From: Fulvivirga sp. M361
Lineage (GTDB): Bacteria; Bacteroidota; Bacteroidia; Cytophagales; Cyclobacteriaceae
DNA length: 64,000 bases
Assembly (NCBI RefSeq): GCF_007097395.1
Contig: NZ_VKDC01000012.1
Location: forward strand, 62,001-126,000
Reading direction: 5' to 3'
A model generated the notes under the pieces. The model searched no databases. It was not told where the DNA came from and worked only from the letters and a program-made list of their open reading frames with translations. The position numbers and the translations under genes are program-made. Below, piece after piece: positions 25,100-34,991 of the stretch; within the stretch, counting starts at the first letter, position 1, and each line of letters opens with the position of its first letter.

Positions 25100-26242
25100 T
25101 CATCGGATCAAATACATCGTACCGCGATCTGCCTCCATACCTTTTTGATCGACAGCTCTATAAAAATAGGCTCCCATTGGAGCTACGATACCTGTAGTTG
25201 TATAGCCATCCCAAAATGTCTCTTGGGTAGACACAACATTCAGCCGCTTTATCAGCACACCACTCTTATTAAAAATATCTACGGTTCCTGTCATATCATC
25301 AGGAAGCTCAAAGACCCACCTTTCTCCTCTCTCAGGTGAAAACGCCTTTTGCTCTTTCGAACATTCATCACCGACAATAACAAATGTTTTAGTAAGCGTA
25401 CAATCACCTTCATCCGATAGCAAAAGTTGATAAGCCCCGGGCTTAATTCCTGATTTGATGTTTTCCCTTATTAGAATGGAATCAGGTAATAATAGTATGC
25501 TCAATTTATTATTCTTTACCCGTTGAATCAAGTCATCAGGAATTTGTATAGAACCTGATTTACACTGATCTGTGACTTGCAGGTCAGCTTCTGCGAGGTT
25601 TGCAAAACAATCATCTCCGCCAGGAAAAGTAAATGGTTTCACCGGGACGATTTTGGTAAAATTATTAACAGGTTTTTGAGTACTTAGGTCAGGTATTTTC
25701 TTCTGAATACGAGGTAGCAAAACAGGAGCCTGACCATTATGATCAGACTCCATGGTAACAGGTATATGTGTTGAATACTCCTCTTGTTGTAATGAAGAGG
25801 CCATCGAAGACCCTCCTATAAGCTGCTCTTTTTCTATTTCATCTTCTTTATTTTCATTTGTGATGTCGGATGGAATTGTTGTTTCATTTTTAGACTGAGC
25901 ACTGATAATTTCCAGCTTAGTGTCTTCAGTCTGTACAAACTCTGACTCCGTTGATATCAGTGACCAGGTAGACAAAACAGCTACAGCTAACCCCCCAACT
26001 CCCAAAGCTATCTTACCATTTCGAGGGAAACTGGAATGGACCTGGTGGTCCATAAAAGTTTCTATATCCCCTTTGACTGTTATCAACTCGTGATCGACAA
26101 TGGCCTCTTGTACAGCTCTGTGAGCAGCTACTTCTTGTCGAAGAGCGCTATCAGAGTTCATCTCTTTTTCGAAAGCATCGGCTTCTGCTTCACTTAACGC
26201 GTTGTTTAAATAAGCTTCAATTTTCTCTATGTACTCGTCCAT
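25100..26242 (-). CDS. Anti-sigma factor with CHU_C-like periplasmic tail
   Basis: Encoded 3 bases after the ECF sigma gene. Cytoplasmic helical part at about residues 1-75 (EKIEAYLNNALSEAEADAFEKEM, typical of anti-sigma N-termini, without a zinc motif), one membrane helix at about 78-97, a low-complexity periplasmic linker to about 190, then a beta domain (GAYQLLLSDEGDC) and a C-terminal domain resembling the gliding-motility-associated sorting domain: AFSPERGE, VDIFNKSGVLIKR, FWDGY, APMGAYFYRA. The last two pieces match in order those of the T9SS substrate at 33.6 kb. Anti-sigma function is inferred from context and layout; the CHU_C likeness is by eye. Confidence 0.72.
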   Translation of the reverse strand: MDEYIEKIEAYLNNALSEAEADAFEKEMNSDSALRQEVAAHRAVQEAIVDHELITVKGDIETFMDHQVHSSFPRNGKIALGVGGLAVAVLSTWSLISTESEFVQTEDTKLEIISAQSKNETTIPSDITNENKEDEIEKEQLIGGSSMASSLQQEEYSTHIPVTMESDHNGQAPVLLPRIQKKIPDLSTQKPVNNFTKIVPVKPFTFPGGDDCFANLAEADLQVTDQCKSGSIQIPDDLIQRVKNNKLSILLLPDSILIRENIKSGIKPGAYQLLLSDEGDCTLTKTFVIVGDECSKEQKAFSPERGERWVFELPDDMTGTVDIFNKSGVLIKRLNVVSTQETFWDGYTTTGIVAPMGAYFYRAVDQKGMEADRGTMYLIR

Positions 26243-26245
26243 CGT

Positions 26246-26818
26246 CTATTGGGTCAGTTCATTTCTGAATTCAGTCTGCATCTTGACTTTCTCTATCAAG
26301 GACTTTTTACATTTATATTTTTTTGACTTGGCTACATCTTCCGACTTAAAACCCATTTTCAAGGCGATCTCAGTCATTGAAAGGTTTTGATAATATGCCA
26401 ATACCAGTAACTTTCTACAAGTTTCTCCCAACTGGGCAAAAAGTAAATTAACTTTCTTTTCTCTTTCCGAGGTCAATACCTGCTCAAGAACGTCTTCCTC
26501 GTCTGTCAGCTTGCCAGCCACTTCCTCCAGGTCGGTAAGCCTGCCGTCTTTCTTTAATTTATTGATCCAAAGGTTCCGTGCTATGGTAAAAATAAAAGCT
26601 CCGACCTCATAGCTTTCGTTATACCTCCCTAACTTCAACTGCCTGTAGAAAACTAAGACAGTGTCTTGAAAGACATCCTTGGCGTCCTCTTCATCTCCTC
26701 CTCTGCTCCTAACCATAGAAGCAATTTTTTTAAATTCACTCTTGTACAATAGCGCTATGGCTTTGTCATTTTTTCCAGCACGGATATACTTCAAGATCTC
26801 TGTATCTCTCCTTTTCAA
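26246..26818 (-). CDS. ECF sigma factor, TTG start
   Basis: RNA polymerase sigma-70 factor of the ECF class, 190 residues: sigma-2 region with DAKDVFQDTVLVFYRQ and FIFTIARNLWINKL, then sigma-4 with CRKLLVLAYYQNLSMTEIALKMGF. The frame begins with TTG at 26818 (MKRRDTEILKYIR); no nearby ATG fits. It is co-transcribed with the anti-sigma gene and faces the PorP/T9SS-substrate genes across 147 bases, so that intergenic region is a natural place for its own promoter and target promoter. Confidence 0.9.
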   Translation of the reverse strand: MKRRDTEILKYIRAGKNDKAIALLYKSEFKKIASMVRSRGGDEEDAKDVFQDTVLVFYRQLKLGRYNESYEVGAFIFTIARNLWINKLKKDGRLTDLEEVAGKLTDEEDVLEQVLTSEREKKVNLLFAQLGETCRKLLVLAYYQNLSMTEIALKMGFKSEDVAKSKKYKCKKSLIEKVKMQTEFRNELTQ

Positions 26819-26965
26819 AATGGTCCGTTTATTACGGCTACAATGTCAACCCTTAAAAGTAACCGCTAATAGAAAAAATTTATGGCCTGTTACTCATAAT
26901 TAAAAAAAGGGCATATTAGCAAAACAAAAGCCCTCTGTCTATAGTAAAGTGCAATTTGAAGTTAA

Positions 26966-27850
26966 ATGAGAAAACCAACTCCCGTTTTTATTATTCTCAT
27001 TTTCTGTCTGTCAAAATTTTCTTCCATTCGGGCACAGCAAGAGGAACTATTACCGGTCCGCTTTTCCCTGTTCACGGCAAACTACCCTATGCTAAACCCT
27101 GCTTTGATCAATATGAAAGACCCCAGATCATTGGCCATGGGCACCCAGCTGACCGCTGGCGGTTTTGATAATGTATATTCCTTCTATGTAAATGGAGCGC
27201 TAACTATTTTTCCTAATGGAAGGCCTTCCCATCGTCTGGGTATTTCTGTCATTGGGGATTGGGAAGGAGAGTTGATCTCACGGAGTTGGTTAAAACTAAT
27301 GTATGCTATTGAAATACCCATTTCCCAAAACGTCAAGATCGGAAGTGGGGCGCATATAGGGCTTATGAACTACGGTGTGCAAAATACGGCCTTAAGCGCC
27401 GGTGGCTCTGACATTGCCCCTGTCATCTCCGTAGGTCTGAAGCTCCGTAATGACCACGGCCATCTAGGCATTGCCATCAATCAGGCTAACCAGGCCATAC
27501 TGGTCCCTGTGGAACAGCCCATACGCTTGAATCGTCATATCAATTTAACTTCTGACTATGACCTGCAAATAAGTAACGCATTGGTATTGACACCGGCATT
27601 ATGGTCACGTTGGCTGAGGGATAGTTTTCATGAATACACCTTGAGTCTGGAAGCAAAATTGAATGAGGTATTTTCTTTTCAAACGTTATGGTTTCACGAA
27701 AGAAATTTAAGTTTCTCAGTAGGAATGAAAAATATCCGGTTCATCCAAGCTGATCTCAGTATTCAGTTTTCTTATACCGTACCCTTTGGGCCTGAAGTAT
27801 TTGATCAGTTCAAATTATATGAAGCACATATGGGGTTGAATGACTTTTAA
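26966..27850 (+). CDS. PorP/SprF-family outer-membrane protein
   Basis: Outer-membrane barrel of the PorP/SprF family, which accompanies T9SS substrates and helps carry or anchor type B substrates on the cell surface. Signal peptide to about residue 24 (SIRAQQ). Family hallmarks are the N-terminal NYPMLNPALINMKDPRSL block, the many amphipathic strands with FSxGM-type turns and the C-terminal strand. The length of 294 is usual. The two genes that follow encode T9SS substrates, the common arrangement for this family. Divergent from the ECF sigma gene. Confidence 0.88.
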   Translation: MRKPTPVFIILIFCLSKFSSIRAQQEELLPVRFSLFTANYPMLNPALINMKDPRSLAMGTQLTAGGFDNVYSFYVNGALTIFPNGRPSHRLGISVIGDWEGELISRSWLKLMYAIEIPISQNVKIGSGAHIGLMNYGVQNTALSAGGSDIAPVISVGLKLRNDHGHLGIAINQANQAILVPVEQPIRLNRHINLTSDYDLQISNALVLTPALWSRWLRDSFHEYTLSLEAKLNEVFSFQTLWFHERNLSFSVGMKNIRFIQADLSIQFSYTVPFGPEVFDQFKLYEAHMGLNDF

Positions 27851-27929
27851 TTTATTTCATCCATGCACGGTTACTTTTGATGATATGCCATGTAGTCTAA
27901 GTATAGAATCAAATTTTTAATCTATTGAA

Positions 27930-33599: not shown

Positions 33600-34991
33600 A
33601 TGATCACTAGAAATCAAATTATTTCAATACTCATTATCTTCCTGAGCGTCAGTTCCGCCTACGCTCAGGAAGTACCCTGGACCTTTACTCCCTCTGCGTT
33701 ATCACATACTATATTCATCTCTAAAGAAAACGTACCCACCATTAGCCAGGTACCACTGGATTCCGGTGATTACATAGGTGTTTTTTTCCTGGATGATAAC
33801 CAAAAAGCTCAGAATGCTGGTTTTACGCAATGGAAGGGAAACGACACATTTATAACCGCTTATGGTGACGATGGCATTACGGACGGGTTCCAACCGGGAG
33901 AAGTATTTGGTTTTAGGATCTGGCGTAGGGTGAACGAATGTACTCTATTGGAATTTGACGTAGATTTTTTAACCGGAGGAATTTACAATAGTGCAGGGGA
34001 ATTTCAAACCAATGGGATCAGCGGAATATCAAAGTTAGCAGGAACTCCCATCGGGATTACTTATTCGACAGCTGCGTTATGTACCGGTGATCCGATACTG
34101 GTACCTGACGTTCCGGACAACACAGAACAAACCTTTTTCTCTTCTTCCAATGGGTTATGGCTCGATGGGAACACAGGTACCGTTGATCCTGCACAAAGTG
34201 AAGCAGGTATTTATACCATTTCCTTTCAATCAACCAACTGTCTGTTATCAGATGAATTTGAAATTACCATTCGGGAAGCCCCCATTGTTGACCTGGCCAC
34301 CCTTTTTTCAGGTTGTGACTCGGTATTTATCGACGTTGGTGAAGACACAGAATATAATTATCGTTGGGTAAATGAAGATACGTCAGATGGGATAGGCCAA
34401 TCAGCAGAAATAACCATTAAAAATAGCGGAAATTATACTTTGCGAGTTACTAATTCCAATCAATGCACGCTGGAAAAAACAATCGAGGTCCTTGTCAGTT
34501 CACCCATATCCATTGACAATATCAATCTTGAAAAAAATTTCATCCCATGTGGTACTGAAGGAGAGCTTATTATAAAACTTGAATCAACGACCGGCAGTAT
34601 TCCTCCGCTTAGCTTCACAATGGAAAATATAACAGGAAATGTATTTACTTCATCCAATGGCATATTTGGATCACTTCCGGAAGGTAATTATCAACTTACA
34701 GTTTCTGACTCTTTAAAGTGCTTATCGGAGTCTTATAGTGTTGAATTCAGAAATCAACAATCTTGTAAAAACGCCGTACTCACTCCAAATAATGATGGTT
34801 CATTGGAATCACTTTATATTGAAGAAAACGGACTGGCTAAGATCTATGATCGTAATGGGGTAATCCGAAATGAAATCATTATTCCTGCATATTGGGATGG
34901 TAGAAATGAATCCGGAAATGTATTACCCATGGGTACCTACCTGATCATAGTCAACGGCACAAAAAAAATGACCGTCACTATTGTTAAATAA
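33600..34991 (+). CDS. T9SS type B substrate (CHU_C-type ending)
   Basis: A 463-residue secreted protein. Signal peptide to about residue 22 (SSAYAQ). It opens with the same module found in the giant protein (PWTFTPSALSHTIFI, GDYIGVFF, FTQWKG). Next come beta domains (CTGDPILVPDV, GNYTLRVTNSNQC) and a SprB-like repeat (GNYQLTVSD). It ends in a gliding-motility-associated sorting domain: LTPNNDGS, AKIYDRNGVIR, YWDGRNESGNVLPMGTY. T9SS type B substrates are carried by PorP/SprF partners, and such a gene lies two genes upstream. The 45-base gap to the giant gene suggests one transcript. Confidence 0.85.
   Translation: MITRNQIISILIIFLSVSSAYAQEVPWTFTPSALSHTIFISKENVPTISQVPLDSGDYIGVFFLDDNQKAQNAGFTQWKGNDTFITAYGDDGITDGFQPGEVFGFRIWRRVNECTLLEFDVDFLTGGIYNSAGEFQTNGISGISKLAGTPIGITYSTAALCTGDPILVPDVPDNTEQTFFSSSNGLWLDGNTGTVDPAQSEAGIYTISFQSTNCLLSDEFEITIREAPIVDLATLFSGCDSVFIDVGEDTEYNYRWVNEDTSDGIGQSAEITIKNSGNYTLRVTNSNQCTLEKTIEVLVSSPISIDNINLEKNFIPCGTEGELIIKLESTTGSIPPLSFTMENITGNVFTSSNGIFGSLPEGNYQLTVSDSLKCLSESYSVEFRNQQSCKNAVLTPNNDGSLESLYIEENGLAKIYDRNGVIRNEIIIPAYWDGRNESGNVLPMGTYLIIVNGTKKMTVTIVK

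Follow-up and report, generated by a model that had tools for sequence, protein, structure and literature searches.

A predicted secretion-linked sigma switch in Fulvivirga sp. M361, with an anti-sigma factor ending in a type B-like sorting domain

The 64,000-nucleotide stretch analysed here (the window; Fulvivirga sp. M361, contig NZ_VKDC01000012.1, positions 62,001 to 126,000) encodes, next to an extracytoplasmic function (ECF) sigma factor, a 380-residue protein that looks like a membrane anti-sigma factor. As judged from family profiles and a predicted fold, its periplasmic end carries an SprB-type repeat followed by a domain homologous to the type B sorting domains of the type IX secretion system (T9SS). 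This protein belongs to a conserved module composed of the ECF sigma factor, the tailed anti-sigma factor, a dedicated outer-membrane carrier of the PorP/SprF family, usually encoded divergently, and a type B surface protein, in which a sorting domain has apparently been reused as a sensor. In Bacteroidota, the way in which cells make surface adhesins in step with exporting and anchoring them has been little described. Control of T9SS genes has been described for PorXY-SigP in Porphyromonas gingivalis (PMC7712824) and for an ECF-type promoter motif in Flavobacterium psychrophilum (PMC9723704). The module makes the coupling of adhesin expression to export testable, since its carrier is dedicated, its sorting domain looks like a decoy and its predicted regulon is compact.

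An earlier note on this DNA, made from the sequence alone, had described the anti-sigma factor as a membrane helix followed by a beta repeat and a CHU_C-like domain, and had paired four motifs of this end with motifs of the type B protein encoded at 33600-34991. Hydropathy, an AlphaFold2 model and the Pfam matches of relatives support this architecture, and all four motif pairs are found in both proteins, in the same order. When the two proteins are compared directly (BLASTP, single comparison), they share 26% identity over 92 residues (E=1e-5), and the type B protein is the second-best match of the anti-sigma factor in the whole genome (residues 262-361, E=0.004). The tail alone stays below the cut-offs of the family models: 22.3 bits with FlgD_ig (cut-off 27), 16.4 with CHU_C (27) and 15.5 with TIGR04131 (35). 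Among 23 relatives, Pfam at E<=0.01 gives CHU_C in 20 and FlgD_ig in 12; in a profile-profile comparison, the anti-sigma tails match the tails of the module type B proteins with a probability of 98.2 (E=4e-14), the anti-sigma profiles including the window protein and 22 relatives. The homology of the tail to CHU_C is firm because the family profiles match, even though the single-sequence scores are below threshold.

The predicted fold points to the same kinship. When the last 85 residues are modelled alone, from 13 sequences, they form an immunoglobulin (Ig)-like sandwich with a predicted local distance difference test (pLDDT) score of 93.2 and a predicted template-modelling score of 0.83. Foldseek, run against 350,542 PDB chains, places P. 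gingivalis PorU and PorZ on top (both 8e-4), then FlgD. At rank 27 comes a 75-residue chain of the T9SS translocon with bound RemZ, which is presumably the tail of RemZ. The E-values are modest, with Ig domains of the FlgD type scoring close behind PorU and PorZ. The PorZ match is placed by a sequence search at residues 698-742 of 758. A search of the PDB with a sequence profile of the tail is headed by designed repeat proteins and a pyrroloquinoline quinone (PQQ)-type protein, none of which passes over any single stretch; the first single-stretch matches are to FlgD (6e-4), PorZ being found at 0.008. Both profile and predicted fold thus bear out the relation to CHU_C and T9SS type B domains that had been proposed.

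The CHU_C-like domain ends at most 2 residues from the C-terminus in 35 of 36 anti-sigma tails, as a sorting domain would. An NGDG-type (N-x-D-G) loop, usual at the start of type B domains, is found by regular expression in none of these 36 tails, whereas it is present in 27 of 31 tails of the module type B proteins (hereafter X proteins) and in 7 of 8 ordinary type B tails, the latter taken from the window's genome. In the X tails, this expression overlooks one genuine variant or more (L096, as judged by eye). An earlier, different expression applied to the first 30 residues had matched 1 of 39 tails, duplicates included. In F. johnsoniae, five conserved type B motifs are each required to secrete an SprB fusion (PMC12618676), and we infer from its position that the NGDG-type loop is among them. 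As this loop is absent, the tail resembles a sorting domain that is no longer exportable. The anti-sigma factor also starts, before its helix, with a soluble domain of ~70 residues, which, judged from topology, is unlike the signal-peptide start of type B substrates. The tail is probably a "decoy", that is, a sorting-domain fold kept at the extreme C-terminus and not exported.

The conservation of the module was assessed with two sets of loci. In the first set, the anti-sigma query was run in 145 related genomes, 38 of which, the window's own included, gave some match, and 29 neighbourhoods, mostly those of the stronger matches, were read. The second set was obtained by a sigma-alignment search of named genomes and consists of 80 loci, the best 80 of at least 480 confirmed. 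In this sigma-seeded set, the anti-sigma factor has SprB and/or CHU_C-like parts in 14 of 80 loci, including L101 and L102, which were counted as tailed though they have the SprB part only. A PorP is encoded anywhere in the locus for 13 of the 14 tailed factors vs 4 of the 66 untailed ones (Fisher, 1e-10), and a divergent PorP within 1.5 kb for 10 of 14 vs none of 66 (Fisher, 6e-10); these Fisher values are overstated because the loci are not independent, with near-copies (L104/L107, L139/L142, L082/L083) and several loci per genome.

When both sets are joined and three duplicates removed, 38 loci are obtained. An ECF sigma gene adjoins the tailed anti-sigma gene in all of them (38/38). PorP is divergent in 33, of which 31 were recognised by the first profile and two by a module-PorP profile: L089 (2.7e-39; no Pfam match) and L090 (3.7e-22; 17.7 bits with Pfam, under the cut-off), the latter being a 110-residue partial protein near a contig end. 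It is co-directional in two more (L101, L103), and its presence is not assessable in L108, which has just 95 bases upstream. An X protein is encoded in 32 of the 38 loci, directly after the anti-sigma gene in 25, both modules of L109 sharing one X count. With Pfam, the X proteins of L104, L106 and L139 show leucine-rich repeats (LRR) above the cut-off, Ig-like domains below it and, in two of them, CHU_C above it. The X-tail profile was seeded with 12 proteins that it later found, and a local CHU_C profile ("chuc") contains 8 tails, at least one of which (L001) is in a wrong frame; the tail and PorP counts use other profiles. A single-sequence search of genome contigs gave no match, and the genome G181, considered as a further carrier of the module, proved to be a false lead, its adjoining type B and PorP genes both being of the ordinary kind.

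Several observations on these loci can be added. In G134, 11 anti-sigma loci were fetched (L077, L090-L099), each on a separate contig, with PorP in 11/11 (one partial, one split) and X in 9/11, which makes a large paralogous signalling set; the split PorP gene is at L095:5169-6043 (-). The anti-sigma gene is also split in a Sporocytophaga metagenome-assembled genome (MAG; L102:10573-11311, +), and in the sister species G010 it runs across two overlapping frames (L081:7925-9072, -), owing to a frameshift or a sequencing error. By eye, other sigma relatives pair with anti-sigma factors ending in a trypsin-like peptidase region (L078:8637-9743, L079:9024-10145, L120 and others), and the gene after sigma in L160 and L178 encodes Saprospiraceae anti-sigma factors with Ig- or FlgD-like ends, possibly parallel inventions.

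The link to PorP is stronger than the earlier note could know, as a dedicated group of PorPs accompanies this type of tailed anti-sigma factor. In a maximum-likelihood tree of 59 PorPs, all 31 module PorPs fall on one side of a branch with a support of 100/99, the other side being made up of 28 sequences, 24 of them the other PorPs of the window's genome and 4 from elsewhere; L089, recognised later, and L090 and L095, partial or split, are not part of this tree. Sporocytophaga provides a contrast: its anti-sigma factor ends after the SprB repeat, without a CHU_C-like domain, and the next genes encode a type B protein of the ordinary kind, with a full CHU_C domain (85 bits), and a PorP (245 bits) that is likewise ordinary and is placed among the others in the tree. 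On this phylogeny, the module PorP is a dedicated carrier travelling with the tailed anti-sigma factor. In SprF, the tail of the PorP-family protein is reported to be disulfide-anchored through a C-x-C motif (PMC12635249); this motif is missing from the final 40 residues of all 31 module PorPs and, in the genome's 24 remaining PorPs, from the final 60.

A specific mimicry of each module's own cargo was considered and not retained. Across 27 modules, tail-cargo similarity is higher for own pairs than for others (p=0.0004), and the same comparison made with SprB plus tail gives p=0.0002 for all modules, 0.06 within G134 and 0.35 within G101; the excess across the 27 modules is no proof of mimicry, because shared history can explain it.

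Promoter-like sites were used to get insights on the sigma regulon. The sigma-side gap contains a site of fixed spacing (GTTACTT, 14 bases, TGTAG). With a loose regular expression at spacing 14, it is found on the sigma side in 11 of 26 non-redundant modules (shuffled mean 0.11) and in the PorP direction in 1 of 26. The exact site GTTACTTTN13TGTAG occurs 3 times in the 8.1-Mb genome: upstream of sigma, where the pattern was taken, between PorP and the LRR/Ig gene that follows it, and on contig C105. It also occurs 3 times in G010, for 0 occurrences of the reversed control pattern. The third sites are equivalent in both genomes, since they precede surface-type proteins 65% identical over 412 residues (1507 residues in the window's genome; the G010 copy was compared from its first 442). 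This third predicted regulon member (L193:11151-15674, -) is secreted-looking, with FGE-sulfatase-like and CarboxypepD_reg domains, and is encoded far from the module; the use of its site is less sure, because it lies ~320 bp from the annotated start. Sites with up to one mismatch were set aside as background, as there are 12 of them vs 30 for the reversed pattern.

Outside the window, a family pattern was matched 10 times over the 584 kb of 35 module loci, of which L126 shares its contig with L083, and had no match over the 1.17 Mb of the 66 other sigma loci. Nine of the 10 stand before a sigma or surface gene; the one in L101 (position 20140) lies apart from the genes of the module. In L103, a Flavobacteriales MAG locus ordered PorP, type B, sigma, anti-sigma, an exact site follows PorP and precedes the type B gene. 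Behind PorP, the site is present in 5 of 26 non-redundant modules vs 0 of 26 on the opposite strand (shuffled mean 0.12), and it is found behind 0 of the 24 other PorPs of the window's genome. It is also found in front of PorP in 0 of 26 modules with a tighter expression, and a regulon including PorP is not supported, given this rarity in the PorP direction. In its -10 part, the site is similar to the CGT box found in the ECF-type promoter motif of F. psychrophilum T9SS genes (PMC9723704). The sigma regulon would thus be related to the T9SS, as the earlier note supposed, on the evidence of promoter-like sites: it probably comprises the sigma/anti-sigma operon itself, the surface operon that lies behind PorP and carries T9SS tags, and a further secreted-looking surface protein, PorP apparently staying outside. 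In this surface operon, the type B protein encoded behind the LRR/Ig gene is a candidate PorP cargo. In L104 and L107, a large gene behind PorP (L104:5421-8321, L107:4164-8297) encodes a GH18-type protein with carbohydrate-binding modules and a match to a T9SS type A tail, and a promoter-like site lies between PorP and this gene.

The features of the window are listed in Table 1. The interval 25100-26818, given in the earlier note as the anti-sigma factor, does cover it, together with the sigma gene, the anti-sigma gene proper being 25100-26242. PorP is indeed on the opposite strand; it adjoins the sigma gene, from which it diverges with a 147-bp gap, rather than facing the anti-sigma gene. 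The sigma factor matches Sigma70_r2 (E=8e-10) and TIGR02937 (65.6 bits, above the cut-off of 42.9), and its TTG start is also found, by eye, in the sister species. The window PorP is below the cut-off of TIGR03519 (50.8 bits vs 90.55) and scores lowest against the family model among the 25 PorP/SprF matches of the genome, which also encodes the T9SS translocon SprA (2501 bits) and has 34 CHU_C matches, 31 of them above the cut-off. The LRR/Ig protein is above the cut-offs of Ig_2 (66.4 bits), LRR_EndoS (33.4 bits) and Por_Secre_tail (40.1 bits). The type B protein matches the X-tail profile (3e-29), yet is among the seeds of that profile, and reaches 26.6 bits with CHU_C, for a cut-off of 27, and 29.4 bits in the genome search.

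Table 1. Features of the sigma/anti-sigma locus, with positions in the window.
Feature	Position	Strand	Basis or remark
ECF sigma factor, open reading frame (ORF)	26246-26818	-	Coding part listed 26249..26818; TTG start
Anti-sigma factor ORF	25100-26242	-	380 aa; 3-base gap after the ECF sigma ORF
Anti-sigma residues 1-69, cytoplasmic helical domain, presumed sigma-binding	26036..26242	-	Weak NF052375 match; three modelled helices
Transmembrane helix, residues 79-99	25946..26008	-	Hydropathy maximum 78-96; modelled helix 79-99, low pLDDT
Predicted disordered periplasmic tether, ~110 aa	25616..25945	-	Composition; pLDDT ~25-37
SprB-like repeat, Cys 212, 227, 281, 294	25358..25615	-	SprB pattern in aligned relatives
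C-terminal CHU_C-like domain without NGDG-type loop	25103..25357	-	Family profiles, predicted fold, loop regular expression
Promoter-like site GTTACTTT-N13-TGTAG, upstream of sigma	26838..26863	-	Pattern derived here
PorP/SprF-family outer-membrane carrier	26966-27850	+	PF11751, 74.4 bits vs cut-off 22.3
Second exact promoter-like site, between PorP and LRR/Ig gene	27870..27895	+	Also in sister species
LRR/Ig surface protein, T9SS type A tail, 1874 aa	27930-33554	+	Predicted regulon member
Type B surface protein, 463 aa, SprB-like and X-type CHU_C tail	33600-34991	+	45-nt gap after LRR/Ig gene

The assignment as an anti-sigma factor relies on several kinds of evidence. The gene adjoins that of an ECF sigma factor, and the protein has a single helix following a cytoplasmic N-terminal domain, as a membrane anti-sigma factor would. 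This domain matches NF052375 weakly (residues 9-48, E=0.0018, 18.3 bits for a cut-off of 100), a model matched at E<=0.01 by 5 of 23 anti-sigma relatives, and gives 14.3 bits with zf-HC2 (cut-off 22.2); no FecR match is obtained with Pfam, either at E<=1 on the window protein or at E<=0.01 on the 23 relatives. In the AlphaFold2 model of the full protein, made from an alignment of 12 sequences, it is formed of three helices (pLDDT of 82-89 over residues 11-40); residues 95-210 are disordered, a poorly resolved stretch extends up to ~297, and a confident C-terminal beta sandwich follows. The tether has a median length of 106 residues across the family (41 rows, 3 duplicates among them). SprB is matched in 13 of 23 relatives (Pfam, E<=0.01) and not in the window protein itself; the four cysteines of the repeat are invariant across the 23 rows of one alignment (A2) and are not all kept in another of 14 rows (A3). 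Gene position, topology and the weak anti-sigma match together suggest that this protein would inhibit the adjoining sigma factor.

One possibility, which we regard as evenly poised between right and wrong, is that the four parts form a T9SS-linked sigma switch that matches cargo to carrier via a docked tail. The anti-sigma factor would be anchored in the inner membrane and expose its sigma-binding domain to the cytoplasm. On the periplasmic side, a disordered tether of ~110 residues would hold out the SprB repeat, followed by a degenerate sorting domain of type B, in the direction of the outer membrane. As the tail has the sorting-domain fold and stands at the extreme C-terminus, yet lacks the NGDG-type loop, it probably docks, without export, on the dedicated PorP, either alone or within the SprA translocon, whose pore the tethered tail could enter from the periplasm. 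Type B tails are reported to bind their cognate PorP/SprF carriers (PMC12618676; PMC9143113) and are thought to stay anchored by PorP-like carriers (PMC9143113). The sigma factor would act on the operon that encodes it and on the T9SS surface cargo; PorP apparently lacks this promoter. As the cargo is predicted to be under sigma, as PorP apparently is not, as the anti-sigma tail is cargo-like, and as the carrier is dedicated, a matching of cargo to carrier is proposed, in which tail and cargo would compete for PorP. Free carrier would engage the decoy tail, the anti-sigma factor would be loosened or destabilised, and sigma would switch the cargo on; cargo bearing a genuine type B tail would, on arrival, occupy the carrier and close the switch. 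Regarding the sign of the switch, we lean slightly to sigma release when the carrier is free; the opposite, in which cargo displaces the tail and sigma is released, is nearly as likely. If the proposal is true, cells may match surface-protein production to export, and the switch recurs as many parallel copies within single genomes.

Several results weigh against this switch. Type A tails bind PorV through its extracellular loops, within the pore of SprA (PMC10994853); a tail in the periplasm would therefore have to reach into the translocon or bind PorP on a different face. The main predicted regulon member in the window has a type A tail and would use PorV, not PorP. The excess similarity of the tail to its own cargo is not significant within single genomes (G134, p=0.45, n=9; G101, p=0.11, n=5), and the co-divergence of tail and PorP beyond the history of sigma, determined on the 24 modules with all four parts assigned, other loci being dropped, is weak (partial r=0.24, p=0.01) and is absent within G134 (r=0.17, p=0.22, n=7). 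Among the 38 loci, PorP was not found beside L072, on a 3.7-kb contig, and L076, and an X protein was not found in 6, some of them at contig ends. The promoter-like site fits only part of the family (11/26 with the loose expression and 7/26 with a tighter one), and the N-terminal domain scores far under the NF052375 cut-off (18.3 vs 100). Finally, the module is patchy across the phylum: in an even sample of 395 genomes (E<=1e-25), it is found in the window's genome only, a figure that may be an undercount, as 4 candidates per genome were scored.

Other explanations were weighed against the same evidence. The one that survives best, still an unlikely one, is ligand sensing, in which a PorP-anchored LRR/Ig or type B receptor would pass a ligand signal through PorP to the periplasmic anti-sigma tail, as a TonB-dependent transducer does to FecR. 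X and PorP do co-occur with the anti-sigma factor, the scanned X proteins carry LRR and Ig-like domains, typical of binding, and the 13 matches to the anti-sigma query in G134 would suit many ligands. However, sigma appears to induce the surface protein and not PorP, which suits a cargo better than a receptor-transducer, and the LRR/Ig protein of the window has a type A tail, not a PorP-type one. Quite improbable is a generic periplasmic Ig-like stress sensor, whose tail PorP, a mere neighbour or client, would never touch. Its fold would be the one common to FlgD and other Ig-like domains, and the trypsin-like and other tails paired with related sigma factors (by eye) would fit with it; the tight association of tail type and PorP, the single dedicated PorP group, the lack of a promoter-like site for PorP itself and the two best structural matches, both T9SS proteins, argue against it. 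Least probable is an exported tail, moved to the surface by the T9SS and PorP while the helix stays in the inner membrane, so that the protein would either span two membranes, as the Bacteroides Dma proteins do with domains from outer membrane to cytosol (PMC13088901), or be pulled or cleaved by the secretion motor: the ~110-residue tether is, by our own argument from contour length, long enough to span the periplasm and the domain is at the extreme C-terminus in 35/36 tails, as sorting domains require, but the NGDG-type loop, if it is one of the five motifs whose mutation blocked secretion of the SprB fusion (PMC12618676), is found in 0/36.

Among known systems, we rate the module as a variant of trans-envelope sigma/anti-sigma signalling, the Dma family being the nearest in design. 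Among best-ranked titles and abstract openings, with few subscription papers or preprints and without ECF classification supplements, no paper was found on an anti-sigma factor with CHU_C or SprB parts or on a PorP tied to an ECF/anti-sigma pair. FecI-FecR-FecA cell-surface signalling combines an ECF sigma factor, an inner-membrane anti-sigma factor and a TonB-dependent receptor with a signalling domain. The module likewise has an ECF sigma factor, an inner-membrane anti-sigma factor and an outer-membrane barrel, but its anti-sigma factor has no FecR match and PorP takes the place of the TonB-dependent receptor. FlgM, the soluble flagellar anti-sigma factor, is a substrate of the type III system that exports it; the proposed likeness is that substrate genes are tied to export status through an anti-sigma factor that makes use of a secretion route, with the difference that the window protein is membrane-bound and probably not exported.

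Within the T9SS, SprF-SprB and PorP-PG1035 also have a PorP-family barrel encoded beside a type B surface protein; unlike them, the module includes a sigma factor, and it is an anti-sigma factor that carries the type B-like domain, without signal peptide or NGDG-type loop. In the PorA-PorXY-SigP pathway of P. gingivalis, a protein bearing a C-terminal domain (CTD) feeds a T9SS-tied ECF sigma factor, as here; there, the CTD protein is separate and acts with a two-component system on machinery genes (PMC7712824), whereas here the anti-sigma factor itself bears the domain and the cargo is the predicted target. The Dma proteins of Bacteroidota share with the window protein an N-terminal anti-sigma domain (a presumed one in the window protein), one helix, a long disordered tether and a C-terminus directed to the outer membrane; Dma ends in its own beta-barrel (PMC13088901), whereas the window protein ends in an 85-residue sandwich, the barrel being the separate PorP gene. 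The main text of the Dma2 paper mentions neither T9SS, type IX nor PorP. We tentatively hold, for somewhat less than an even chance, that the module is a secretion-coupled sigma switch in which a non-exportable type B decoy reads the occupancy of a dedicated PorP and cargo synthesis is matched to free carrier, and there is an open chance that this is the first secretion-coupled anti-sigma factor of the T9SS. It would then be the T9SS counterpart of FlgM, built like Dma with the barrel on a separate gene.

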